In this document: piece after piece, positions 1,822 through 48,897 of the stretch
Position numbering within the stretch: position 1 is the stretch's first letter
Layout: every line of letters begins with the position of its first letter
Assembly: GCA_015063225.1 (NCBI GenBank)
Contig: SUSU01000001.1
Location: 152,446 to 216,445 of the forward strand
Direction: 5' to 3'
DNA: 64,000 nucleotides
From: Thermoplasmata archaeon
GTDB lineage: Archaea > Thermoplasmatota > Thermoplasmata > Methanomassiliicoccales > Methanomethylophilaceae
Translations under genes and position numbers: made by a program
The notes under the pieces: model-generated
Told to the model about the DNA's origin: nothing
What the model saw: the letters and a program-made list of their open reading frames with translations, nothing else
Database searches by the model: none

Positions 1822-2574
1822 ATGTCCGATTTCAAGACCGGTTTGGATCTGTATGTCAGTGCGAAACCTGACAGGATCCTCCTTCTCGATACCGAGACCA
1901 CCGGTCTGAAAGGAGGCCTTTTCGACAAGGACCCGGGCTTCCGTCCGGCGACCGATCCCGAGGAATCGTCCCGGCTGGATTCCCTTAACTGGAACAATTA
2001 CGGCGATCTCGTCCTGGATATCGGCATCTGCGAGCTCAGTCTTTCCGAGGGGACGGTGAAGGACGTCTACTCCTCCGTGGTCGGTTACGACACCTCGATC
2101 TGGAACGAAAGCATGTGTCATTCATGGATCTTCGAGAACAGCGACCTCCGTATCGAGGATGTGGCCCACGCACCGAGGCTCTCCAAGGTCCTCAAGGAGG
2201 TGACGGCGATCCTCGCGGGCAGGTGGGTGACATCCTATAACGTCCAGTACGACCTCGACAAGTTCCTCTACAGGTTCCCCTGGTGCCTGAAGAACAGGTT
2301 CAGCGAGGTCAGGGACCCGATGTTCTCCGCCCAGCAGATATGCAAGCTCAAGAGCCCGTACTACGGCGTGACCGAGTACCGCTACCCCAAGCTCGACTAC
2401 GCCTACGAGAAGATCCTCGAGGGGGAGGACCCCGCAGGCATTCACGGGGTGCAGGACCACCGTGCGCTCTCCGATGCGAGGATGGCATCGCACCTGCTGC
2501 TGAGGATGTACCGCGAAGGGACATACGACCCGCTGGATTTCAGCGGCCGTCACTCTTCCTTCTCTTCGCCGTGA
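1822..2574 (+). CDS. DEDDh 3'-5' exonuclease (DnaQ/RNase T-like)
   Basis: A 250-residue protein with the three exonuclease motifs of the DnaQ-like DEDDh superfamily: Exo I in LLDTETTG (Asp23, Glu25), Exo II in SYNVQYDLDKF (about residues 138-148) and Exo III in HRALSDARMASHL (His and Asp near residues 215-220). These acidic residues bind two metal ions and remove nucleotides from 3' ends of DNA or RNA. The start ATG 1822 puts Exo I at the usual distance from the N terminus; longer in-frame starts run antisense through the ThiS-like gene. It converges on the P-type ATPase gene and overlaps its 3' end by 25 bases. Confidence 0.8.
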   Translation: MSDFKTGLDLYVSAKPDRILLLDTETTGLKGGLFDKDPGFRPATDPEESSRLDSLNWNNYGDLVLDIGICELSLSEGTVKDVYSSVVGYDTSIWNESMCHSWIFENSDLRIEDVAHAPRLSKVLKEVTAILAGRWVTSYNVQYDLDKFLYRFPWCLKNRFSEVRDPMFSAQQICKLKSPYYGVTEYRYPKLDYAYEKILEGEDPAGIHGVQDHRALSDARMASHLLLRMYREGTYDPLDFSGRHSSFSSP

Positions 2575-5171
2575 CGCCTTCTGAAAATGGATCTGCGTTC
2601 CTTCAGGACGTTGGCGGCGACCTTCTCCGAGAACCTGTCGAGGTGGCCGATTATCCTGCTCTTGAGGACGGCGAGGGTGATCACGAACCATATCACGGAC
2701 ATCAGTATGATGAATATCCACACGTTGGTGTCGAAGCAGATCATCTTCAGGAACGTCGCCGCATATCCGGGGACGTAGAAGAAGATGGCTGCGACCGTGG
2801 CGGTCATGAGAAGCAGGATGCCGATGGGGAGGTACGCCCTGCGGAAGGGCACGTTGTCCCAGGCGAGCCTCTTGAACGGGGGGAAGAGGAGCATGAGCTG
2901 CAGTATCCCGGTGATGATCAGGAACAGTATCATGGCGTTCTTGCCGAAGGTGAGTTCGAGGGAATCGCTGCCGCAGATGTATGCGGTCATGTTGTCGGCG
3001 GTCCAGTGGTTCTCGGGGAACAGGTCCTTGTCGACGGAACCGGGACTGAGTCCGCCGCTGTTCGCTGCGGAGACCATGGAATCGATGATGCCGTCCATGT
3101 CGATGTCTCCCCCCACGCACAGGTAATAGACGATGAGGTACGTGGCGAGTCCGCCGATGACGGTCAGCACCGAGACGGGGCCGCCGTAACGGATGACCCT
3201 GGGGAGGATGAGCTCCCGGTTCTCGGATGGCTTCGCGGCGAACGTCAGGAAGAACGCCGCTACCGTGACCGTGAGGAACGCGTAGGCCATGTTCTGTATG
3301 GGCTCCATGGGTTTGGTCCCGAAGATCAGGAGCATGATGAGAACGAGGAAAGCCAGGGTGACGTTCCTGGTCAGGTAGAGGCGGAGGATGTCCCTCATCC
3401 CGGACACGGTCCTCTTCCCCTCCATGATGGCACGGGGCAGGGCTTTGAAATTATCGTTGATGAGAATCATGTCGGCTACGCCGCGGGCCGCGGAGGAACC
3501 CGTCTCCATCGCCACGCCAACGTCGGCCTTCTTGATGGAACGCACATCGTTCACGCCGTCGCCGACCATGGCGACATATCTCCCGTTCCTGCGGAGGGCG
3601 TCGATGACCTTCTCCTTCTGGTCGGGGCGCATGCGTCCGAAGATGTTGGTCTCCAAAGCGGTCTTGTCGAATTCCTCCGGGGACATAGAATCGAGGTCGT
3701 CGCCGGATACGCGTCTCCTCTCCCCGGGGATCTCAGCGAGGGAGAACAGGGCCTCCACGGTATCGGGGTCGTCGCCGGAGATGACCTTGATATCCATCCC
3801 GTTGCCGGTGAAGTTCTGGATGATCTCGCGGCAGTCCTCGCGGACCTCGTCCCTGATGGACACGACCGCGACGGGCTCGAGGGCGGGGATGGAGTCCTCC
3901 TCCCCCTCATGGACCTCCGCGCCGTGTCCGTCGCAGAACACGATCGCCCTGAGGCCTTTGGAGGCGAGGTCGGACACCACCCAATCGACCTCCGAGGAGC
4001 CCTCCGTGTAGGGTTTGAGGACGTTCCATGCCCCCATGAACACGGTGTCGATCTCCTCCCCCTTAACCCTAACCGCGGAATATTTGCGAGCAGAGGAGAA
4101 CTGTATCTCGTCGATGAGCTCGGTCTCGCGGGCACCGAACTTGTCCTTGACCGCCTGCATGGTGCGGTTCAGACTGCCGGTCGCCCCGCACATCTCGGAT
4201 ATGAGGCGCTCGGCGCGTTCTGGAGTGCCGATGAAGTAGACGTCCTCGAACACGAGCTTGTTTGTGGTAATGGTGCCGGTCTTGTCCATGCAGACGGTGT
4301 CCACATGGCTCATGCTCTCCACGGATGCGGAGTTCTGGAGGAGGACGCCGGAATCCGCCATGCGGACGGCCGTGATCATGTATGTGAGGGTGATGAGAAG
4401 GAAGAGCGCGATGGGGACGATATCAAGGATGAGCACGAACTCCCTGAGTGTGTCGTCGATGCTGAATATCCCGCGGACGATGTTGAGTATTACGGAGATC
4501 AGCAGGAAAGCGAAGGCGAGGATCATCAGGGCCTCGGTGGCCGCGGTGGTCTCTTTCTGGAGAGGGGTCTTCTTCTTCTCGAACTTGCGGGCGGCGGCGG
4601 TCATCTTGGCGGAGAAGGTGTCCTCGCCGATCTTGTCGACCCTGAAGTAGCAGTCCCCGGAGACGCACGACGAACCGGAGAACACGGTGTCGCCGGGCTG
4701 TTTCCTGACGGTGCGGGATTCCCCGGTGAGGAGGGACTCGTCCATCTCCGCCGCGCGGCTCTCCAGGACCTCCCCGTCCACCTGGGCCTGTTCCCCGGCG
4801 GAGAGGTGGATGATGTCGTCCATAACGATGGAAGTGCGGTCGATGGTCCTCTCCTCCCCGTCCCTGACGACGACGGCGGTGGGGCGCATGAGGACGGCAA
4901 TCTTGTCGAGCCTGCGTTTCGCTTTGCATTCCTGGATGGTGGAGATGAGGACGTTGAGGACGATGACGCCCGTAGCCGCTATGGCGTTGATGATGTCGTG
5001 GCATATCACGAGGGAAAGACCGAGGATGACCAGAATTACGTTGAAGGGGGTGATGGCGTTCTTGAGGAAGATGTCCAGGTAGGTCCTGCCGGTGCGACCT
5101 TCCTCGCCGTTCACCAGACCGGAGGAAACCCTCTCCTCCACCTCTGATGAGCTCAGCCCCTGAACAGACAT
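2550..5171 (-). CDS. P-type cation-transporting ATPase (HAD-IC family)
   Basis: An 873-residue membrane ATPase with all P-type landmarks in order: an N-terminal hydrophobic hairpin (about 45-75), the dephosphorylation loop TGES (149-152), the phosphorylation site DKTGT (296-300), SGDD (465-468) and the hinge GDGVND (537-542), then a C-terminal six-helix region. Helix M4 carries a single proline (VPIALF), not the CPx of heavy-metal pumps, and there is no N-terminal metal-binding domain. This suggests a P2/P3-like pump for an alkali or alkaline-earth cation; the ion cannot be assigned. Single gene, divergent from the region holding a small secreted protein. Confidence 0.88.
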   Translation of the reverse strand: MSVQGLSSSEVEERVSSGLVNGEEGRTGRTYLDIFLKNAITPFNVILVILGLSLVICHDIINAIAATGVIVLNVLISTIQECKAKRRLDKIAVLMRPTAVVVRDGEERTIDRTSIVMDDIIHLSAGEQAQVDGEVLESRAAEMDESLLTGESRTVRKQPGDTVFSGSSCVSGDCYFRVDKIGEDTFSAKMTAAARKFEKKKTPLQKETTAATEALMILAFAFLLISVILNIVRGIFSIDDTLREFVLILDIVPIALFLLITLTYMITAVRMADSGVLLQNSASVESMSHVDTVCMDKTGTITTNKLVFEDVYFIGTPERAERLISEMCGATGSLNRTMQAVKDKFGARETELIDEIQFSSARKYSAVRVKGEEIDTVFMGAWNVLKPYTEGSSEVDWVVSDLASKGLRAIVFCDGHGAEVHEGEEDSIPALEPVAVVSIRDEVREDCREIIQNFTGNGMDIKVISGDDPDTVEALFSLAEIPGERRRVSGDDLDSMSPEEFDKTALETNIFGRMRPDQKEKVIDALRRNGRYVAMVGDGVNDVRSIKKADVGVAMETGSSAARGVADMILINDNFKALPRAIMEGKRTVSGMRDILRLYLTRNVTLAFLVLIMLLIFGTKPMEPIQNMAYAFLTVTVAAFFLTFAAKPSENRELILPRVIRYGGPVSVLTVIGGLATYLIVYYLCVGGDIDMDGIIDSMVSAANSGGLSPGSVDKDLFPENHWTADNMTAYICGSDSLELTFGKNAMILFLIITGILQLMLLFPPFKRLAWDNVPFRRAYLPIGILLLMTATVAAIFFYVPGYAATFLKMICFDTNVWIFIILMSVIWFVITLAVLKSRIIGHLDRFSEKVAANVLKERRSIFRRRHGEEKEE

Positions 5172-8136: not shown

Positions 8137-8861
8137 TCGTCATCAACTCCGTATCCGTTGTCCTTGATGTCCTGAAGGATGGCTTTCGCATCCCCTTCCC
8201 TGACGATCTTCCCGTGGATGAGCACGAACGCCTTGTCGGCGCCGATGTAGTCCATGATCTGCCCGGTGTGGGTGATGACGAACGCGGACACTTCCTTCGT
8301 CCTCTCGGTACCCTCCTCGGTGCCGTAGATGAGTTCGTGGACCTTCCTGCCGATGAGTCCGATGCTCTCGAGGTCGACCCCGGACTCGGGTTCGTCAAGC
8401 ATGACGAAGTCGGGAGCCTGTGCGGAGAGCTGCATGAGTTCGGACCTCTTGATCTCCCCTCCGGAGAATCCGACGTTGACGTCGCGGTTCATGAAGTCCT
8501 GCATCTTGAATTCCTTCTCCCTTCCGGCCTGTCCCTTGCCGTTCTTGGCGGTGGCGGCGACGAGGTTGCCGAGGGTCACGCCGATGACGTTCGGGGGCCT
8601 CTGCATCATCATGCCGATGCCGAGTTTGGAACGCTGGTCGACGGGGAGGTGGGTGATGTCCACTCCTTTGAAGATGATCTTTCCGGAGGTGATTTTGGTC
8701 ATCCCGTATCCCATGATGCTGGCAAGGAGCGTGGATTTACCCGAGCCGTTGGGGCCGAAAAGGACGCAGATCTCTCCCTCTTCGAGGTTCATCGTGACCC
8801 CCTTGAGGATTTCTCTGCCGCCTGCCTCTACGTGCAGGTCAATTATCTCGAGAAGTGACAT
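8133..8861 (-). CDS. sufC: SufC, ATPase of the SUF iron-sulfur assembly complex
   Basis: A 242-residue ABC ATPase with Walker A GPNGSGKST (36-44), the SufC-type signature FSGGEIKRSEL, Walker B FVMLDEPESGVD, and the SufC-specific HTGQIMDYIGADKAFVLIHG C-terminal region. It drives conformational change of SufB during cluster assembly. First gene of the sufCB operon; a TATA-like stretch (TTTATTTA on the minus strand, about 8884-8891) lies only about 25-30 bases before the ATG, so the mRNA is nearly leaderless. A perfect palindrome sits just upstream of that box. Confidence 0.92.
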   Translation of the reverse strand: MSLLEIIDLHVEAGGREILKGVTMNLEEGEICVLFGPNGSGKSTLLASIMGYGMTKITSGKIIFKGVDITHLPVDQRSKLGIGMMMQRPPNVIGVTLGNLVAATAKNGKGQAGREKEFKMQDFMNRDVNVGFSGGEIKRSELMQLSAQAPDFVMLDEPESGVDLESIGLIGRKVHELIYGTEEGTERTKEVSAFVITHTGQIMDYIGADKAFVLIHGKIVREGDAKAILQDIKDNGYGVDDE

Positions 8862-18897: not shown

Positions 18898-20298
18898 TCA
18901 GAAGCCGTAGTTCTTCATGTTGAAGTTCTTGACGACGCCGTCGTACTCCTTGACGCACTTCTCGACGAAGGTGTCCTCCTCGGTGGGGAGGGCCTCGATC
19001 TTCTTCTTGGAGTCGATGAGGACCTCGTACTGCTTCTTGGACAGCCTGAGGATCTTGTCGTTGTATCCCTTCTCCATGATCTCGCAGGCCTTGAGGGCAC
19101 CGGCGCGGGCGCGGAGGTAGTAGGAGTCTCCCTCGGCGACGATGGCCTGTCCGATCTCGTAGGCGTTGAAGTACGCGAGGCAGTACGCTTCGGGGGACCT
19201 GGTGAGGTCGGTGAGGGCGTACAGGTCGCGGAGGGTCTTCGCGTTGCCGGTCTGGATGGCGGTGTTCATCAGGGCGGCCTCGTATCCGAGGGATCCCATC
19301 CAGCAGGCGACGGAGGTTCCGCCGAACTCGGGGTGGTACTCGACGGACTCGTTGGACCAGCAGTCGCAGATCTGGGCGGTGAGGTTACCCATCAGGTCGC
19401 AGTGGGCGCACTGGCAGTTCTTACCCTCCTGGGTGGTGGGTTTTCCGGCGATGCACTTGTTGATGATTCCCTCGTAACCGCAGTCCTTGTCGGGACCCAC
19501 GGCTCCGCACTCCCAAGCCACAAGGGTCCTGGGGGCAGCGATTACACGGGTGATGGCAGAGAAGGTCTTCTGGACATCCATGTCGAGCATACCGCCGGCC
19601 ATGAACATCGAGGTGTTGGCACCGGAACAGTCGGTGTCTCCACCAGCGACGGTGCGGTTCCTCTTGGCGACGTCGACCATCTCGGACCAGATGTACTCCA
19701 TGTCGACGGATCCGAGGTATCCGACACCGAACAGGAAGGCGACGATGTCGCCCTGGGTGACGGCGTAGTCGGCGAACTCTTTTCCGCCGACGGACTCGAC
19801 GGAGAGGTTGTCGCAGCCGTTCTCGCAGGCGATGTCGCAGCATCCGAAGAACTTCTCGGGGTAGCTGTGGACCTTGTCCATTCCGGGGCGGAGTCCCTCA
19901 TCGGCCTCACGCTGGTCGGGGATGGTGTGGCGGACACCGCAGGCGAGTCCGTACTCGTCGTGGTATTTCTCGCAGATCTCCTTCTGGCCGGCGACGACGG
20001 GGGCGGAGAGTTTCTCCTGGTTCATCTGGGAAACCCACTCGGTCTCGAGGTGGACGGCGGGGAATCCGGCGGTGATACAGCGGTCGAGAGCGTCCTTGGA
20101 GATGTAGTCGACGTACTCCTTTCTGAAGCGCTCGACGTCCTTCTCGGTTCCGGCCCTGGGGGCGTAGTTGATCTCGGGGATGACCTGTCCGGATCCGATC
20201 TTGAGGCCGAAGCCCTCGGAGACAGGGTGGAGCGCGGAACCCATGATGATGTCGTCCGCGCACTTGTACGCCATACTCTTGTATTTGATAGATGCCAT
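18898..20298 (-). CDS. mtaB: methanol:corrinoid methyltransferase MtaB, copy 1
   Basis: A 466-residue MtaB. It takes the methyl group of methanol and passes it to the cobalt of MtaC, the first step of methylotrophic methanogenesis. Expected zinc ligands are present: Glu168 (SVESVGGKE), Cys224 (GDTDCSGAN) and Cys264 (AWECGAVG), close to Glu164/Cys220/Cys269 of the Methanosarcina barkeri enzyme. ATG 20298 was preferred to GTG 20307: GGGAG lies at proper distance and MtaB proteins begin in this way. It follows mtaC1 by five bases. The DNA is identical to copy 2 across the whole gene. Confidence 0.95.
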   Translation of the reverse strand: MASIKYKSMAYKCADDIIMGSALHPVSEGFGLKIGSGQVIPEINYAPRAGTEKDVERFRKEYVDYISKDALDRCITAGFPAVHLETEWVSQMNQEKLSAPVVAGQKEICEKYHDEYGLACGVRHTIPDQREADEGLRPGMDKVHSYPEKFFGCCDIACENGCDNLSVESVGGKEFADYAVTQGDIVAFLFGVGYLGSVDMEYIWSEMVDVAKRNRTVAGGDTDCSGANTSMFMAGGMLDMDVQKTFSAITRVIAAPRTLVAWECGAVGPDKDCGYEGIINKCIAGKPTTQEGKNCQCAHCDLMGNLTAQICDCWSNESVEYHPEFGGTSVACWMGSLGYEAALMNTAIQTGNAKTLRDLYALTDLTRSPEAYCLAYFNAYEIGQAIVAEGDSYYLRARAGALKACEIMEKGYNDKILRLSKKQYEVLIDSKKKIEALPTEEDTFVEKCVKEYDGVVKNFNMKNYGF

Positions 20299-20303
20299 TT
20301 GTC

Positions 20304-21086
20304 TCACTCTCCCTTAACGATGGAGTCCCATTCCTCGCGAACTCTCTTCCAGTCGTATCCGGCCAGAAGCTTCTCGGCGATCATGGGGGTCTGGTTGGCC
20401 TTGTCGGAGTAGATTCCGAGGTCGTAGGAGTTGGAGAACTCCCTGTTGACCGCACCTCCGCATCCCATGAGCGGGATGTTGAGACCGGCCTCCTTCATCC
20501 TCTTGGCTTCCTCGGGGAAGGCGGACATGGTGGTGGTCATGAGAGCGGTACCGGACATGAACAGGGGCTTGACCTCGATACATTTCTCGACGGCGACGGT
20601 GATGGGGACATCACGTCCGAGGTCGATGACGTTGTAACCGGCGGCCTTCATCATGGCGGCGGCGATGTTCTTTCCGATGTCGTGGGGGTCACCCTCGGCG
20701 GCGTGCATGATAACGTCGGCCTTGGTCTCGCGGGCGCCGCCCATCTTCTTCTCGGCGAGGGCGATTCCGATCTCCATGACCTTGGCGGCGACCATCATGT
20801 CGGGGAGGTAGTAGACGTGCTCGTTGTAGAGCTTACCGACAGCGTCGATTCCGGGGACGAGACCATCGTTGATGACCTGGTCGGCGGGGAACTTCTCGAG
20901 GGCTGCGGCCATAGCGGGTCCGACGTCCTTGACCTTCTTGTAAAGAACGGTCTCGGCGACAGCCTTCAGAATGGGGTCGCTCGGAAGCATTTTCTTAGCA
21001 GCTTCTTCGGGGCTGGTCTCGTTCTGAACCGCCAGGTCGTACCTGGTCAGAATCTGGGAGAAGTCCACTTTTTTGTAGTCAATCAT
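20304..21086 (-). CDS. mtaC: methanol corrinoid protein MtaC, copy 1
   Basis: A 260-residue corrinoid carrier: a helical cap (residues 1-115), then the B12-binding Rossmann domain with EGDPHDIGKN (His135 is the lower cobalt ligand, as His136 in M. barkeri MtaC), GYNVIDLGRDVP, and SGTALMTTTM. Methyl-Co(III) MtaC is the substrate of MtaA, which is not in the window. GGAGG precedes the ATG. A TATA-like TTTTTAAATA lies at 21141-21150 (minus strand), giving a leader of roughly 30 bases. Its 3' half is identical to copy 2; its 5' half differs. Confidence 0.95.
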   Translation of the reverse strand: MIDYKKVDFSQILTRYDLAVQNETSPEEAAKKMLPSDPILKAVAETVLYKKVKDVGPAMAAALEKFPADQVINDGLVPGIDAVGKLYNEHVYYLPDMMVAAKVMEIGIALAEKKMGGARETKADVIMHAAEGDPHDIGKNIAAAMMKAAGYNVIDLGRDVPITVAVEKCIEVKPLFMSGTALMTTTMSAFPEEAKRMKEAGLNIPLMGCGGAVNREFSNSYDLGIYSDKANQTPMIAEKLLAGYDWKRVREEWDSIVKGE

Positions 21087-21495: not shown

Positions 21496-22896
21496 TCAGA
21501 AGCCGTAGTTCTTCATGTTGAAGTTCTTGACGACGCCGTCGTACTCCTTGACGCACTTCTCGACGAAGGTGTCCTCCTCGGTGGGGAGGGCCTCGATCTT
21601 CTTCTTGGAGTCGATGAGGACCTCGTACTGCTTCTTGGACAGCCTGAGGATCTTGTCGTTGTATCCCTTCTCCATGATCTCGCAGGCCTTGAGGGCACCG
21701 GCGCGGGCGCGGAGGTAGTAGGAGTCTCCCTCGGCGACGATGGCCTGTCCGATCTCGTAGGCGTTGAAGTACGCGAGGCAGTACGCTTCGGGGGACCTGG
21801 TGAGGTCGGTGAGGGCGTACAGGTCGCGGAGGGTCTTCGCGTTGCCGGTCTGGATGGCGGTGTTCATCAGGGCGGCCTCGTATCCGAGGGATCCCATCCA
21901 GCAGGCGACGGAGGTTCCGCCGAACTCGGGGTGGTACTCGACGGACTCGTTGGACCAGCAGTCGCAGATCTGGGCGGTGAGGTTACCCATCAGGTCGCAG
22001 TGGGCGCACTGGCAGTTCTTACCCTCCTGGGTGGTGGGTTTTCCGGCGATGCACTTGTTGATGATTCCCTCGTAACCGCAGTCCTTGTCGGGACCCACGG
22101 CTCCGCACTCCCAAGCCACAAGGGTCCTGGGGGCAGCGATTACACGGGTGATGGCAGAGAAGGTCTTCTGGACATCCATGTCGAGCATACCGCCGGCCAT
22201 GAACATCGAGGTGTTGGCACCGGAACAGTCGGTGTCTCCACCAGCGACGGTGCGGTTCCTCTTGGCGACGTCGACCATCTCGGACCAGATGTACTCCATG
22301 TCGACGGATCCGAGGTATCCGACACCGAACAGGAAGGCGACGATGTCGCCCTGGGTGACGGCGTAGTCGGCGAACTCTTTTCCGCCGACGGACTCGACGG
22401 AGAGGTTGTCGCAGCCGTTCTCGCAGGCGATGTCGCAGCATCCGAAGAACTTCTCGGGGTAGCTGTGGACCTTGTCCATTCCGGGGCGGAGTCCCTCATC
22501 GGCCTCACGCTGGTCGGGGATGGTGTGGCGGACACCGCAGGCGAGTCCGTACTCGTCGTGGTATTTCTCGCAGATCTCCTTCTGGCCGGCGACGACGGGG
22601 GCGGAGAGTTTCTCCTGGTTCATCTGGGAAACCCACTCGGTCTCGAGGTGGACGGCGGGGAATCCGGCGGTGATACAGCGGTCGAGAGCGTCCTTGGAGA
22701 TGTAGTCGACGTACTCCTTTCTGAAGCGCTCGACGTCCTTCTCGGTTCCGGCCCTGGGGGCGTAGTTGATCTCGGGGATGACCTGTCCGGATCCGATCTT
22801 GAGGCCGAAGCCCTCGGAGACAGGGTGGAGCGCGGAACCCATGATGATGTCGTCCGCGCACTTGTACGCCATACTCTTGTATTTGATAGATGCCAT
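21496..22896 (-). CDS. mtaB: methanol:corrinoid methyltransferase MtaB, copy 2
   Basis: Encodes the same 466 residues as copy 1, and the DNA appears identical base for base, with a constant offset of 2598. The identical block starts one base past the stop codon and continues into mtaC. Same zinc ligands (Glu168, Cys224, Cys264). Flanking DNA and the 5' half of the partner mtaC differ, so this is a true second locus homogenised by recent gene conversion, not an assembly echo. Different promoters may serve different methanol levels, as known for multiple mta operons in Methanosarcina. Confidence 0.95.
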   Translation of the reverse strand: MASIKYKSMAYKCADDIIMGSALHPVSEGFGLKIGSGQVIPEINYAPRAGTEKDVERFRKEYVDYISKDALDRCITAGFPAVHLETEWVSQMNQEKLSAPVVAGQKEICEKYHDEYGLACGVRHTIPDQREADEGLRPGMDKVHSYPEKFFGCCDIACENGCDNLSVESVGGKEFADYAVTQGDIVAFLFGVGYLGSVDMEYIWSEMVDVAKRNRTVAGGDTDCSGANTSMFMAGGMLDMDVQKTFSAITRVIAAPRTLVAWECGAVGPDKDCGYEGIINKCIAGKPTTQEGKNCQCAHCDLMGNLTAQICDCWSNESVEYHPEFGGTSVACWMGSLGYEAALMNTAIQTGNAKTLRDLYALTDLTRSPEAYCLAYFNAYEIGQAIVAEGDSYYLRARAGALKACEIMEKGYNDKILRLSKKQYEVLIDSKKKIEALPTEEDTFVEKCVKEYDGVVKNFNMKNYGF

Positions 22897-22901
22897 TTGT
22901 C

Positions 22902-23684
22902 TCACTCTCCCTTAACGATGGAGTCCCATTCCTCGCGAACTCTCTTCCAGTCGTATCCGGCCAGAAGCTTCTCGGCGATCATGGGGGTCTGGTTGGCCTT
23001 GTCGGAGTAGATTCCGAGGTCGTAGGAGTTGGAGAACTCCCTGTTGACCGCACCTCCGCATCCCATGAGCGGGATGTTGAGACCGGCCTCCTTCATCCTC
23101 TTGGCTTCCTCGGGGAAGGCGGACATGGTGGTGGTCATGAGAGCGGTACCGGACATGAACAGGGGCTTGACCTCGATACATTTCTCGACGGCGACGGTGA
23201 TGGGGACATCACGTCCGAGGTCGATGACGTTGTAACCGGCGGCCTTCATCATGGCGGCGGCGATGTTCTTTCCGATGTCGTGGGGGTCACCCTCGGCGGC
23301 GTGCATGATGACATCGGCCTTGGTCTCACGGGATCCACCCATCTTCTTCTCGGCGAGGGTGATTCCGACCTCCATGACCTTGGCGGCGACCATCATGTCG
23401 GGGAGGTAGTAGACGTGGTCGTTGTACAGTTTACCGACAGCGTCGATTCCGGGGACGAGACCATCGTTGATGACCTGGTCGGCGGGGTATTTGGCGAGGG
23501 CAGCGGCCATGGCGGGGCCCACTTCCTTGATTTTCTTGTAGAGAACTGTCTCTGCGACCGCTTTGAGCGTGGGGTCGGTGGGCAGCATCTTCTTTGCGGC
23601 TTCTTCGGGACTGGTCTCGTTCTGAACCGCCAGGTCGTACCTGGTCAGAACCTTCGTGAAGTCCACTTTGCTGTAGTCGATCAT
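22902..23684 (-). CDS. mtaC: methanol corrinoid protein MtaC, copy 2
   Basis: A 260-residue corrinoid protein equal to copy 1 from about residue 125 on, with about a dozen changes before that (for example SKVDFTKVL against KKVDFSQIL). His135 in EGDPHDIGKN binds cobalt. ATG 23684 has AGGAGG seven bases upstream; a longer in-frame start is rejected. A TATA-like TTTAAATAATATA (about 23726-23738, minus strand) precedes it. First gene of the mtaC2-mtaB2 operon. Confidence 0.95.
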   Translation of the reverse strand: MIDYSKVDFTKVLTRYDLAVQNETSPEEAAKKMLPTDPTLKAVAETVLYKKIKEVGPAMAAALAKYPADQVINDGLVPGIDAVGKLYNDHVYYLPDMMVAAKVMEVGITLAEKKMGGSRETKADVIMHAAEGDPHDIGKNIAAAMMKAAGYNVIDLGRDVPITVAVEKCIEVKPLFMSGTALMTTTMSAFPEEAKRMKEAGLNIPLMGCGGAVNREFSNSYDLGIYSDKANQTPMIAEKLLAGYDWKRVREEWDSIVKGE

Positions 23685-34936: not shown

Positions 34937-36250
34937 TCAGGTGAGGAGCTGATTCGCGAGCATCTCATCGACCTCAATGCTCCGTTGGGGATTGACGTAA
35001 ACGTAGTGGCGGAGGGTCGTGTTGATCTGTGCATGACGCATCTTATTCTGCACCACATACAAGGGAACCCCGGCATCGACCATGGTTGAACAGAAAAACC
35101 GTCTGAGGGTGTGGCAACTGAAGGGAATTCCTGTTCTGAGGGACAGTTCCTGGAGCATACGCTGTACCCAGTGGTCATCAGCTGCAACTACGTTCCCGTC
35201 ACGGGCGACGCGAACCAGGAGGTGGTCCTCGTCACGATCACCCAGGAGTTCTGCGCGGGAGCCCAAGTATCCAGCGATAAGGCCGTCGAGCTGGGATTGA
35301 ACGTTAATCAGGGCTATTTTGGAGCCTTTTCCACGGATTTTAACCCGGCCTTCCTTAAAATCAGACAATCTGATGTGGGTGATTTCGGACAAGCGGAGCC
35401 CAAGCATCGCCCCGAGAGCGAGTATGACCTTGGTGGTTTCGTCAGCGGCCTCGAACAATACTCTCCATTGGTCCATGGTGATCCATGTGCGGTCCGGGAC
35501 ATCACCAGTGAAGACCAGCCCAGCACGTTTGTACGGATCGTACCCGTAGCACCACCCGAGGAATTTCCCGAAATTACAGAGGTAGGCTTGAATCGTGTTC
35601 TGTCTGGCTTGCATCGAGTGACGGATCCGGCGGAGGTGAGTATAGTCGATTTCATCTGGGGATATAGGCCCGTATTCATCTATTATGGCAGAATAGGATG
35701 CACGAACACACTTGCGGAGGTTCTTCAGAGTTGTTTCGGACAAACCCCTCTCGCGCTGGTCCTCGATGAATCTACTGAGCTGGGACTCCAGCTCCGATGT
35801 CCCAGGAGCCTCGGGTAGGGAGGTCCGCACGGTTTCCCGACGCGGATACGGACGGGGTAACCTCTGCCCAGTCGACCATTCGACGAAATCCACGAGGAAT
35901 CCGATGTAGCGGTTCCTGGTGCCTATGGACAGTTCCGACATCATATCCGACAGGTCCGTCAGATGATCGGCGGTGATGTCCTCGATTTTTGTGATTGAGG
36001 AGCGGTAATCCAACACACGTAGCATCTTTTCTATGGTGATGATGCATTTTCTACGCTGAGATGTGCCCATTTTATCATGCAAATGAAGGTCATAGCGGAC
36101 CACTTGATTTTCGAAATAGAAATTGCCCAAACACGTGTCGCACCAATCGGCACGACCCGTTTGTTTCTTATATCCCATTATGGATGCCAAAGTATCACCT
36201 CGGTGATACCTCTCCGCGACAGTTCGAAGGGTTTCGGAGAGGTTAATCAC
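34937..36250 (-). CDS. tyrosine recombinase (integrase)
   Basis: A 437-residue site-specific recombinase. The N terminus has a Cys/His cluster (WCDTC...HLH) that may bind zinc; a core-binding domain covers about 150-250. The catalytic domain carries Arg in LGLRLSEITH, Lys in RGKGSK, His-x-x-Arg in SCHTLRRFF, His in MRHAQINTT and the nucleophile Tyr in LRHYVYV. It points toward the tRNA fragment about 110 bases away, as expected for an integrase beside its attachment site. Predicted GTG start at 36250; the ribosome site is weak. Confidence 0.9.
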   Translation of the reverse strand: MINLSETLRTVAERYHRGDTLASIMGYKKQTGRADWCDTCLGNFYFENQVVRYDLHLHDKMGTSQRRKCIITIEKMLRVLDYRSSITKIEDITADHLTDLSDMMSELSIGTRNRYIGFLVDFVEWSTGQRLPRPYPRRETVRTSLPEAPGTSELESQLSRFIEDQRERGLSETTLKNLRKCVRASYSAIIDEYGPISPDEIDYTHLRRIRHSMQARQNTIQAYLCNFGKFLGWCYGYDPYKRAGLVFTGDVPDRTWITMDQWRVLFEAADETTKVILALGAMLGLRLSEITHIRLSDFKEGRVKIRGKGSKIALINVQSQLDGLIAGYLGSRAELLGDRDEDHLLVRVARDGNVVAADDHWVQRMLQELSLRTGIPFSCHTLRRFFCSTMVDAGVPLYVVQNKMRHAQINTTLRHYVYVNPQRSIEVDEMLANQLLT

Positions 36251-44103: not shown

Positions 44104-44617
44104 ATATTTCATCAGCACCCACATATTTAAGGCATTTTTCAATAGCTCTTTGTGTTTGGAACTGGATTTGGGTCGACTTAACATATTTTTTCAAGGTTTC
44201 TAAGAGAATAGAGAATTGTTCATAATCCCCATGGGGATAATTAACGATGTACTCCATAAGCAAGTTGCGTACAGTGTCGTCAGCGGTTGGCCCTATAACG
44301 ATGTCGTATCTGGCAGCCCTTCCATAATAACTATCGATTAAGTATTGTAGCCACTCCTCGTCAAGATTGAATGTTTTAACTGCTAGGTGATATTTCTCGA
44401 CACATTCCTCTAGAAATAAGTAGTGGTTAACAAAAAATGGTTTGCCATCTTCAGTTTTCCAAGTGCCTCTAATCAAGGAGTACTTGTAATCCTCGGTTGT
44501 GTAAAATCCTGGGCCAAATTCATTCCAAGAATCCTTGTTAAAATCACTCTGGGGATTTGTAACATTGGTTGGACTACCGTGATATACCTTCCTACTGAAT
44601 AATTGAAATAGACTCAT
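44090..44617 (-). CDS. DUF3990-like ADP-ribosyltransferase-fold protein, probable toxin
   Basis: A 175-residue protein with DUF3990 features: YHGSPTNV near the N terminus, NEFGPGFYTTEDYKYSL, a strand VNHYLFLEEC, EEWLQYLIDSYYG and the diagnostic ARYDIVIGPTADDTVRNL. The H-G-S, F-Y-T-T and conserved acidic positions recall ADP-ribosyltransferase folds. Paired with a DUF3791-like gene, it forms a candidate toxin-antitoxin module. AT-rich with different codon use from flanking genes. It starts by a four-base overlap with the orphan methylase module at 44614, which may let it use that operon's transcription. Confidence 0.7.
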   Translation of the reverse strand: MSLFQLFSRKVYHGSPTNVTNPQSDFNKDSWNEFGPGFYTTEDYKYSLIRGTWKTEDGKPFFVNHYLFLEECVEKYHLAVKTFNLDEEWLQYLIDSYYGRAARYDIVIGPTADDTVRNLLMEYIVNYPHGDYEQFSILLETLKKYVKSTQIQFQTQRAIEKCLKYVGADEIYDVQ

Positions 44618-45063
44618 CTCCTTCTACCTTCGTGTTTGTTTGAGGAAGTTTTTGGTCTCTCATCGAACGTCTTGATGTTCCTCATGATTTCAGTCATGAC
44701 AGGTACCGCGATCGAGTTCCCGGCTTGACGTTGGAGTTGCTGATTGGAGACACCGACCTCCGATGCCTTGTCAAAGGCGCGGTCGTCCCAGCCCCCCCCC
44801 GCCTTGCGACGTGAGAACCCCATTGCTCTCCAGGTCTCCCTCGGGGTCATACGGCGGATGCTCTTCATGTCCTCGGTGACCTTGATGTCGCTGGACTGAC
44901 TGGAGGTGATTGTCGGAGCTAGACCATCGGCCTTGTAGAGGCGACGATGCTGGATGCTGTTGATTCCCTTCTTCTTCCTCCATTCGCGGTTGTTGTAGAC
45001 GTAGATCTTGTCTCCCTTCTTCTCCATGATACCTACGCAGTTGATTCCCTTCTTCTTAGCCAT
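44614..45063 (-). CDS. orphan C5-methyltransferase target-recognition/C-terminal module (copy A)
   Basis: A 149-residue protein equal to the C-terminal half of a DNA cytosine-C5 methyltransferase, with no catalytic half. A target-recognition segment (KIYVYNNREWRKKKGINSIQ, YKADGLAPTITSSQ) is followed by motif IX region IRRMTPRETWRAMGFS and motif X RQAGNSIAVPVMTEIM, then a basic tail NKHEGRRR. A G9 tract in the coding strand (C9 at 44792-44800) encodes part of KAGGGWDD and could shift the frame. Its ATG overlaps the stop of the sister gene by eight bases. May supply specificity in trans. Confidence 0.8.
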   Translation of the reverse strand: MAKKKGINCVGIMEKKGDKIYVYNNREWRKKKGINSIQHRRLYKADGLAPTITSSQSSDIKVTEDMKSIRRMTPRETWRAMGFSRRKAGGGWDDRAFDKASEVGVSNQQLQRQAGNSIAVPVMTEIMRNIKTFDERPKTSSNKHEGRRR

Positions 45064-45502
45064 CTCGATGTCTCCTTTTCCTTGACTTGTCGTCGAATGT
45101 CTTGATGTTTCTCATAATCTCGGTCATGACCGGGACCGCGATCGAATTGCCAGCCTGGCTGTTCAGCTGCCCCTCGGTCATGCCTGACTTGGATGCCTTC
45201 TCGAAGGCACGGTCGTCCCAGCCCCCCCCCGCCTTGCGACGGGAGAATCCCATAGCCCTCCACGCCTCGCGCGGAGTCATCCTACGGATTTGGTTGCCGT
45301 CGTGGGTGATTTTCCCACCGCAACCATGCCCGGCGGTAATCGTAGGTGACAGACCATCGTCCTTGTAGACGGAGTGTGTCTGGATGCACCTCTGCCCGTA
45401 CCTATCCCTCCACTCGTCACGGTCGTAGACGTAGATCTTGTCACCTTTCCTCTGAAGGAGCCCGACACAGTGACACTTGCCACTTTTTGCCACCTGGTTC
45501 AC
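45056..45502 (-). CDS. orphan C5-methyltransferase target-recognition/C-terminal module (copy B)
   Basis: A 148-residue sister of copy A. Target-recognition segment KIYVYDRDEWRDRYGQRCIQ and YKDDGLSPTITAGHGCGG; motif IX region IRRMTPREAWRAMGFS; motif X SQAGNSIAVPVMTEIM; tail KSRKRRHRDG. The G9 tract recurs at the same codons (C9 at 45222-45230). The recognition half differs much more between A and B than motifs IX-X do, as expected for modules with different DNA targets. Catalytic motifs I-VIII are absent. Confidence 0.8.
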   Translation of the reverse strand: MNQVAKSGKCHCVGLLQRKGDKIYVYDRDEWRDRYGQRCIQTHSVYKDDGLSPTITAGHGCGGKITHDGNQIRRMTPREAWRAMGFSRRKAGGGWDDRAFEKASKSGMTEGQLNSQAGNSIAVPVMTEIMRNIKTFDDKSRKRRHRDG

Positions 45503-45920: not shown

Positions 45921-47348
45921 TCATCTCCTCGATTTTGCGAATCCGCGCGAAACGGATGATTTTCTGACTGATGCGGGTTTCTTCTTGGTCTTGGTCGGGG
46001 CGGACTTCGGCTTGGGTACCGTTTTTGCCCTGGAGGACGATTTTGCCTTGCTCGCCGAGGTCTTCCTCGAGTAGTCGGTCACCTTCTTCTGTTTCGATTT
46101 CGCCCTCGGGGACGCATCGAAGTCATCGACGCTCTTCAGAACGGATTTCATCACGGGTACCGCGATCGAGTTCCCGGACTGTTTGTAGAGCTGGGCATCG
46201 GACATGGTCCTCGTGCGACCCGTTTTGGATTTCTCGACCACTGCCTTCGATGCCTTGTCGAAGGCGCGGTCATCCCACGTCCCATCCTTCTTCTTCCTGG
46301 AGAAACCCTGTGCCCTCCAGGTCTCTTTCGGGGTGAGCTTGCGGATGGTCGATTTACCCTCAAGGACCTTGGGCTGTCTGTTACCTCCCTGGCTGGTCGT
46401 GACCGTGGGGCAGAGCCCGTTCTTGCCATAGACCCTCTTGATGGAATCGCGGCCCTTGAGCCCGTCGACTGTTCCCACCTGCTTGCATCTGCACGTGTCG
46501 ATGAAGTTCGAAGTCTTCCTGGACCCCTCATGGGTGGTGACCGCGTGGGCGACATCCTCTTTGGGATCCAAAGGTTTGAATGCGAAACCGTTGCCACGGC
46601 CAGCCTCCTTCTGGGATGACTTCATCGCCCCGGCGACGCGTTTCTTGGTGAGGTAGTATTTGTCATCGACCTCGTCCTCGAGGAAATCGGCCATGACCGT
46701 GTTGCACCCGGTCCCCACGGGAAGGTCGGGGCAGTCGGCGCCGAGGTGGGAAATCATGAACGCACGGTTGCGGTTCTGCCCAGTATCGAAATCCTTCGCG
46801 TTGAGGGTACCAGATTTGCTGGTGTACCCGAGGGCCTCGAGGAATCTCATCCACGCGTCCCAGTCCTTCTTGTTCTTCGGGGAGAACACCTGGGGGACGT
46901 TCTCCATGATGAGGTAGCGGGGGAGGTTGTTGTCCTTCTGAGCCTGGACGAGGATGTCCCTGACCGCCCAGAGGAGTCCCGAGTGTTCGCCCTTGAGGCC
47001 CTTCCCGCCCACGTGGGCGATGGACAGGTCGGTGCAGGGGAAGGAGTAGGTCATGATGTCGACGTTCTTGGGGAGGTGTTTGATTTTTGTGACATCCCCG
47101 CACCTCCTCCCCTGCTTGTCGGTGAACTCACCGAGCATGGGGGTCTTGCCGTGGATCGCCTCGTAGGAGATGTTCGCGTACGGATCGATGTCGCAGATAC
47201 CGACAATCTCGTAGGGGATATGGGCGCGGTCGAGGGCCATCCTCTGGGCGCCTATTCCCGAAAAAAGTTCGACGACACGGAACGGTTTTCCGTCCTTGGA
47301 GTTCTTGGACCTCTGGGGTGTGGTTTTGCGGTTGGTTGTTGTCATCAT
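45921..47348 (-). CDS. complete DNA cytosine-C5 methyltransferase with long basic tail
   Basis: A 475-residue enzyme with all C5-methylase motifs: I VVELFSGIGAQ (25-35), IV SFPCTDLS (catalytic Cys105), VI ENVPQ, VIII QNRNRAFMIS, target-recognition region (about 225-340), IX IRKLTPKETWRAQGFS, X LYKQSGNSIAVPV. It transfers methyl from S-adenosylmethionine to cytosine in DNA, probably to protect the element from host restriction. The last 60 residues are a Lys/Ser/Pro tail ending in FAKSRR. At the place of the G9 tract of the orphan modules it has KKDGTWDD without a G run. No restriction nuclease seen nearby. Confidence 0.92.
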   Translation of the reverse strand: MMTTTNRKTTPQRSKNSKDGKPFRVVELFSGIGAQRMALDRAHIPYEIVGICDIDPYANISYEAIHGKTPMLGEFTDKQGRRCGDVTKIKHLPKNVDIMTYSFPCTDLSIAHVGGKGLKGEHSGLLWAVRDILVQAQKDNNLPRYLIMENVPQVFSPKNKKDWDAWMRFLEALGYTSKSGTLNAKDFDTGQNRNRAFMISHLGADCPDLPVGTGCNTVMADFLEDEVDDKYYLTKKRVAGAMKSSQKEAGRGNGFAFKPLDPKEDVAHAVTTHEGSRKTSNFIDTCRCKQVGTVDGLKGRDSIKRVYGKNGLCPTVTTSQGGNRQPKVLEGKSTIRKLTPKETWRAQGFSRKKKDGTWDDRAFDKASKAVVEKSKTGRTRTMSDAQLYKQSGNSIAVPVMKSVLKSVDDFDASPRAKSKQKKVTDYSRKTSASKAKSSSRAKTVPKPKSAPTKTKKKPASVRKSSVSRGFAKSRR

Positions 47349-47757: not shown

Positions 47758-48897
47758 TCAATCCGCCCCCTTGACTGGAACCCTGACATATCCATTCCTC
47801 ATGGAGTACTCGTCTATGACGTGGAAGATTTCCCTGATAATGGGAACACCGAGGGAGTTCCCGGACTCGAAATACAAGTCGGAGTCCGTCTGTCCGCTGG
47901 CTCTAACGCGGTCGTAGGACCAGTCGGGGAATCCTTGCAGACGGTATGCCTCGCGGGGGGTGAATGTTCTGATGGTCAAGGTGCCATCTGGTCTGCGGAC
48001 GATGACTCCGCTGCAATCCCCGGATGTCATCAGCGTGTGCGCGCGACCCTTTTTCACCCTGCCCCTCGCCTTGTGCTTGGAGGTCACGAACTGAAGTGTG
48101 ACACCGTCCCCCTCATAGCCGTCCAGATACCCGACGCGGGTATCGTTGATTAGACGAAGGCAGTCCTGGTGCCCGTCCGGATCCTATCCGCCGTACATCA
48201 TCTTCTTGCGGAAACTCTTCGAGACCTCGTACTCCTCGATGTATCCCCCCTCGAGAATGGTGGAGAGAGGGGGGGCGGGGTACGTTCCGTCGGGGAGGTC
48301 GGGACAGTCGGCACCGAGGTGGGAGAGCATGAAACATCTCACCCTGTCCTGGGGGACTCCGAAGTCGCTGATGCGGAGGTCCTTCCACTTCGAAGTGTAA
48401 CCCAGTGACTCGAGGGTGTTGATCCACACTTGGGAGTCGGGGCCGTAGTTCTTGTTGTGGATCTGGTCCACGTTCTCCATGATTAGCCATTCGGGGCGGA
48501 GCCTCTCGATCTGTTCCTTGAGCGACCAGAGGACGGAGCTGTGGGAATCCTTGCGGATGAGCCCCTTTTTCTTGGTGGTGTTGGCTTTGGAGAGGCCCTG
48601 GCAGGGAAAACTGTAGCACAGACAATCCATTTCTGGGAATTCGTGAACGGTCACATCCCCGATGTTCTTCGAGGGATTGTATCCGCCGATGCCATCGAAA
48701 ATAGCGTTGTAAGCCGCGTTGCTGCGTTTGTCAATGTCGGCGGTGGCGACAATCTCGTAGGGGATTTTGGATCTCCCGTTCTCCCCGGGGCACGGGGGTT
48801 TGTCTGAGGTGTACAACCCCATGTGCTGGGCACCGATTCCAGAGAATGCCTCCGCCACTCTCAGCTTGCGCCCGTCCTTCGAATTACGGCTAATCAT
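47758..48897 (-). CDS. DNA cytosine-C5 methyltransferase interrupted by one in-frame TAG (possible pyrrolysine)
   Basis: Codons 1-237 hold motifs I (AEAFSGIGAQ), IV (SFPCQGLS, Cys99), VI (ENVDQ) and VIII (VPQDRVRCFMLS). Codon 238 (48186-48184) is TAG. The same frame then runs without a stop through a recognition region (RVGYLDGYEGDGVTLQF, KARGRVKKGRAHTLMTSG), motif IX (TFTPREAYRLQGFPDW) and motif X (ESGNSLGVPIIREI) to TGA at 47758. Read through, the product is 379 residues, a normal size for the family. TAG is avoided as a stop by all other genes listed, and this order uses TAG for pyrrolysine. Otherwise the halves would be a split enzyme (48897-48184; internal start near 48087). Confidence 0.8.

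Follow-up and report, generated by a model that had tools for sequence, protein, structure and literature searches.

A DNA cytosine methyltransferase gene on a mobile element of an archaeon of the Methanomassiliicoccales is interrupted by a single in-frame TAG. We infer, with a probability of about 0.83, that this triplet is efficiently read through as pyrrolysine and that an active, full-length methylase results. The gene lies in a window of 64,000 nucleotides, the whole stretch of DNA analyzed, from a genome assembled as 39 contigs with a total of 1.46 Mb. The reading frame starts with the ATG at 48897, is crossed by TAG at 48186-48184 and terminates with the TGA at 47760-47758 (Table 1). 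The original prediction, which gave the frame 379 residues with the TAG at codon 238, was exact in its coordinates. The match to Pfam PF00145 covers residues 13-361 and positions 2-322 of the 324 in the profile (E 3.2e-44), with one TAG inside. Motifs I to X are found in order, including the catalytic PCQ and the ENV motif, and they lie where they had been predicted, motifs I-VIII before the TAG and the recognition region and motifs IX-X after it. As judged from its sequence, the region 47758-48897 of the reverse strand is a C5-cytosine DNA methyltransferase gene with predicted activity.

Table 1. Coordinates in the window of the interrupted methylase gene, its parts and related genes of the element.
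Feature	Coordinates	Strand	Evidence
C5-cytosine DNA methyltransferase frame, TAG read as pyrrolysine (predicted), 379 codons	47758..48897	(-)	PF00145 whole profile, AlphaFold, Foldseek
Part upstream of the TAG (237 codons), motifs I-VIII with catalytic PCQ	48187..48897	(-)	
Sole in-frame TAG (codon 238), loop between the large and small domains	48184..48186	(-)	
Part downstream of the TAG (141 codons) with the recognition block NDTRVGYLDGYEGDGVTLQFVTSKHKARGRV and motifs IX-X	47761..48183	(-)	Invariant columns, coding periodicity
Earliest possible internal start, GTG, within the conserved recognition block	48085..48087	(-)	
C5 methylase paralogue of full length, 41% identity, no TAG	45921..47348	(-)	
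Stand-alone C-terminal half, recognition region and motifs IX-X	45056..45502	(-)	PF00145 profile 243-323, alignment
Further stand-alone C-terminal half (61% identity with the preceding one)	44614..45063	(-)	PF00145 profile 225-323, alignment
Tyrosine integrase, left side of the element	34937..36250	(-)	PF00589 E 1.6e-17

The region that follows the TAG has the properties of a coding sequence. Its 141 codons retain coding periodicity (GC1/2/3 of 0.57/0.45/0.72) and the frame scores +8, while the two other frames of the same strand score -85 and -138. An open stretch of this length has a p of about 0.014 in the shadow frames of the element's genes, and the open frame after the TAG is beyond chance. 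The codon score per codon is 0.055 after the TAG and 0.21 before it, and the former value is at the level of the stand-alone C-terminal halves encoded in the same element (0.04-0.10). The alignment showed that this part is collinear with single-chain phage methylases, with no break, and that all invariant residues of the target recognition block and of motifs IX-X are in place. The in-frame TAG is followed by intact, homologous sequence up to the normal end of the protein, as expected of a pyrrolysine-containing protein.

The original prediction had assumed that the host decodes TAG as pyrrolysine, and the genome bore this out, with a complete pylTSBCD set and avoidance of TAG as a stop. Contig C16 carries, consecutively, the genes for tRNA-Pyl (anticodon CUA, 8459-8529), PylS, PylB, PylC and PylD. 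PylS has 274 residues (TIGR02367, 275 bits), and the cluster is directly preceded by two mtmB genes, each of which contains a single in-frame TAG. A short PylS that lacks the N-terminal domain, together with mtmB genes, is what we take to be consistent with the Methanomassiliicoccales. Stop codons were counted with a small ad hoc codon-based gene finder in the window and in a sample of about 309 kb, around a fifth of the genome. The 273 host genes called in the sample ended in TGA (253), TAA (14) or TAG (6); the share of TAG among intergenic stop triplets was 22%. In the window, 61 of the 67 scored genes ended in TGA and five in TAA, and the methylase alone met a TAG, as had been claimed. The six TAG endings of the sample comprised the two mtmB genes, an SF1 helicase gene with 374 further in-frame codons, a gene with a TGA two codons further on and two short, doubtful calls; at least three of the six are read-through genes. 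None of the 332 genes ending in TGA or TAA was followed in frame by a coding-like stretch that was free of starts for 30 codons. Such a continuation was found in two of the seven TAG-ended genes (an mtmB and the methylase), and four of the seven continued in a coding-like manner. This host hardly ever ends a gene with TAG; the frequency is similar to the 1.6% of TAG stops given for Ca. M. alvus by Borrel et al. 2014 (PMC4153887).

AlphaFold modeled the read-through protein with an HhaI-like two-domain fold (pTM 0.83). The best Foldseek matches were M.MpeI and M.HhaI, aligned over the full length with TM-scores of 0.65-0.76 by target length, and the new protein shares with them all motifs as well as the fold. 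Its identity to them in the structural alignment is about 21%, and its recognition region is of the kind found in Streptococcus and Staphylococcus phage methylases. According to the model, the read-through protein would fold as a complete methylase. Residue 238 lies, in the model, in the loop that leads from helix 227-230 to strand 247-251, at the junction of the catalytic and recognition domains. In an alignment of about 80 homologues the corresponding column is a variable linker, with many different residues or gaps. The question of whether homologues carry lysine at this codon, raised with the original prediction, had a mixed answer: two Staphylococcus SPbeta-like proteins that align there free of gaps have Lys, and the others have varied residues or gaps. 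No close orthologue was found in 147 genomes of the order, in viral contigs or in genome contigs, the nearest match being 41% identical, and the nearest relatives have no TAG at this position.

The best explanation of these observations agrees with the original prediction of a pyrrolysine-containing, single-chain methylase on a mobile element. The tRNA-Pyl (CUA) of the host, charged by PylS, would read codon 238 (TAG) as pyrrolysine and let translation proceed to the TGA, yielding one full-length HhaI-like C5 cytosine methyltransferase. Residue 238 would be exposed at the surface, in the variable loop that connects the catalytic domain to the recognition domain, where nearly any side chain should be tolerated. 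The TAG probably arose by a single-base change (e.g., from AAG, GAG or CAG), which would have been near-neutral because the host hardly uses TAG as a stop. We consider a neutral origin of this TAG most likely.

Other genes of the order have similar interruptions. A survey of 147 genomes returned about 100 C5-methylase matches, and four loci were otherwise intact with one in-frame TAG, at three independent positions. Besides the gene described here, two near-identical methylases (G080, L206 and G082, L198) have the same TAG at frame residue 151, which falls between motifs VI and VIII; a third (G121, L205) has one at frame residue 379, inside motif IX, in a column where other aligned methylases have Arg or Lys. 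Since the truncated product of the latter gene would lack motif X, read-through is its only sensible reading. The presence of TAG at three unrelated positions of C5 methylases within one order argues that it is a sense codon rather than the subject of gene-by-gene recoding. A helicase of the SF1 (DNA2/NAM7-like) family (L029:5298-7475 (+), G000:C6:105298-107475) has an in-frame TAG at codon 351, and the same column is TAG in three more genomes of the genus (L042, L043 and L045; 40-49% identity, four genomes in total) and mostly Glu in the rest of the family. A TAG kept for that long may encode a functional pyrrolysine. Taken together, the sequences of the methylase and helicase genes indicate that these archaea use TAG as a functioning sense codon. 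A member of the same helicase family from another genus (L154, G091) has TAG where the other 29 rows of the alignment have Gln. In addition, TAG stands at codon 36 of a gene for a DUF4443 protein (L039:227-739 (-)), whose sequence has coding signal before and after the triplet; homologues in the genus lack this TAG. A GP88-family gene on the same contig, to the right of the window (L023:2407-3804 (-)), has TAG at codon 31, and a start downstream of that TAG is possible.

A different reading of the methylase gene is that the enzyme is split as M.AquI is, with the TAG ending a subunit composed of motifs I-VIII whose partner is made either from the rest of the same gene or from one of the stand-alone C-terminal halves encoded later in the operon. 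As M.AquI and M.SssI show, a C5 methylase can remain functional when broken between motif VIII and its recognition domain. The TAG is located in this interval, the one that gives the best complementation between fragments of M.SssI, and it is close to the point at which M.AquI is split (PMC3404938). As in the two-subunit M.AquI, the stop comes after motif VIII and before motifs IX-X; unlike in M.AquI, a start of its own for the C-terminal subunit is absent after the TAG. There is no ATG, GTG or TTG in the 32 sense codons, exactly the predicted number, that separate the TAG from the GTG at 48087, which already lies in the conserved recognition block. A product started at this GTG would miss the first half of the block, including GYLDGYEGDGVTLQF. 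A stand-alone C-terminal subunit with this start was rejected, since conserved recognition residues would be missing. Separate subunits with their own starts had been named as an outcome that would speak against a single chain, and related split methylases do exist in two genomes, with the break in this region (G098, L171 and G097, L170). Their C-terminal genes begin with an ATG, one of them with a Shine-Dalgarno sequence, which the present gene lacks. In G098 the C-terminal gene has the same type of recognition block, its ATG stands just behind GAGGTGA and it overlaps the stop codon of the preceding gene, and in G097 a small gene lies between the two. A homologue from a Streptococcus prophage is also annotated as two genes. 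Both split methylases (L171:3-1325 and L170, reverse strand, 2207-3235) contain an apparent intein directly before the catalytic Cys, with the junctions VTHN|CQDLS and VETHN|CQDLS and a Pfam Intein_splicing match in L171.

The stand-alone halves could in principle serve as partners of a truncated methylase. They overlap each other by 8 bases and lie downstream of the two complete methylases, and they are possibly exchangeable recognition subunits or remnants. In the alignment, however, they are closer to the paralogue than to the TAG-containing methylase, and the downstream part of the latter, which would be unnecessary if other halves served, is intact and collinear. Together with the near absence of TAG as a true stop in this genome, these features make a split enzyme unlikely.

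The TAG could also reflect a recent nonsense mutation or a fault of the assembly, the gene being a nascent pseudogene in which read-through does not occur or is not required. Decay is frequent among methylases of mobile elements: the only TGA-interrupted gene among the roughly 100 matches is a decayed fragment with frameshifts as well (G036), another is a broken copy with a change of frame (G095), and the nearest relatives of the present gene have no TAG here. However, its sole lesion is the one triplet that the host decodes. The otherwise intact C5 methylases with a single stop in the 147 genomes were always interrupted by TAG and never by TGA or TAA, and even a recent TAG would still be read by tRNA-Pyl. 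We regard such a mutation as decidedly improbable.

The original prediction went further and tied methylation, through the supply of pyrrolysine, to growth on methylamines. This part found no support: the codon is at a non-conserved loop position, and TAG occurs in unrelated genes of the same genome and at other sites of C5 methylases of the order, as neutral capture predicts. For these reasons, regulation by pyrrolysine supply was rejected as the default. As the TAG is most likely read as pyrrolysine, the enzyme is probably full-length, with no special methylamine switch, and a dependence of methylation on methylamine growth is not supported. It is very improbable that at low pyrrolysine the 237-residue catalytic subunit borrows the recognition half of the 45056-45502 or 44614-45063 protein and uses its own half when pyrrolysine is abundant, an arrangement that, if true, would shift the element's methylation pattern with the pyrrolysine state of the host.

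With its TAG probably read through, this DNA methylase of a mobile element joins the likely pyrrolysine proteins. The existence of such proteins outside methylamine metabolism in this order is an idea published in 2014; Borrel et al. 2014 predicted 16 of them in Ca. M. alvus, including Cas1 (PMC4153887). The methylase resembles those cases in the presence of pylTSBCD, the rarity of TAG stops and the occurrence, in an ordinary gene, of one TAG that homologues lack. It differs from them in being a C5 methylase of a mobile element, of which the portion of Table 7 that was compared has no example (PMC4153887). Heinemann 2009, as cited in PMC2933860, described pyrrolysine in a tRNAHis guanylyltransferase as a result of neutral evolution, as well as amber codons in Methanosarcina transposases. 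That case and the present one share an in-frame TAG in a gene unrelated to methylamines for which near-neutral capture is the best explanation; the protein is a different one, and read-through here is predicted. Elements of this kind in pyrrolysine-decoding archaea would rely on the additional codon meaning of the host, and the methylase would be shortened in a host that reads TAG as a stop. Standard gene callers split or miss genes that contain such a TAG. An archaeal code in which all TAG codons are read as pyrrolysine was reportedly described in 2025; our search of a collection of papers for a code of that description returned nothing relevant.

The same element includes a gene for a D12-class adenine DNA methyltransferase (PF02086, 54406-55296 (-)), and it may therefore carry several DNA modification activities. 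A PHROG search with ten genes of the element gave mostly weak or no functional matches. Elsewhere in the window, two adjacent two-gene units (18898-21086 and 21496-23684 (-)) have equal lengths and nearly equal coding scores, and are apparently the product of a recent tandem duplication.
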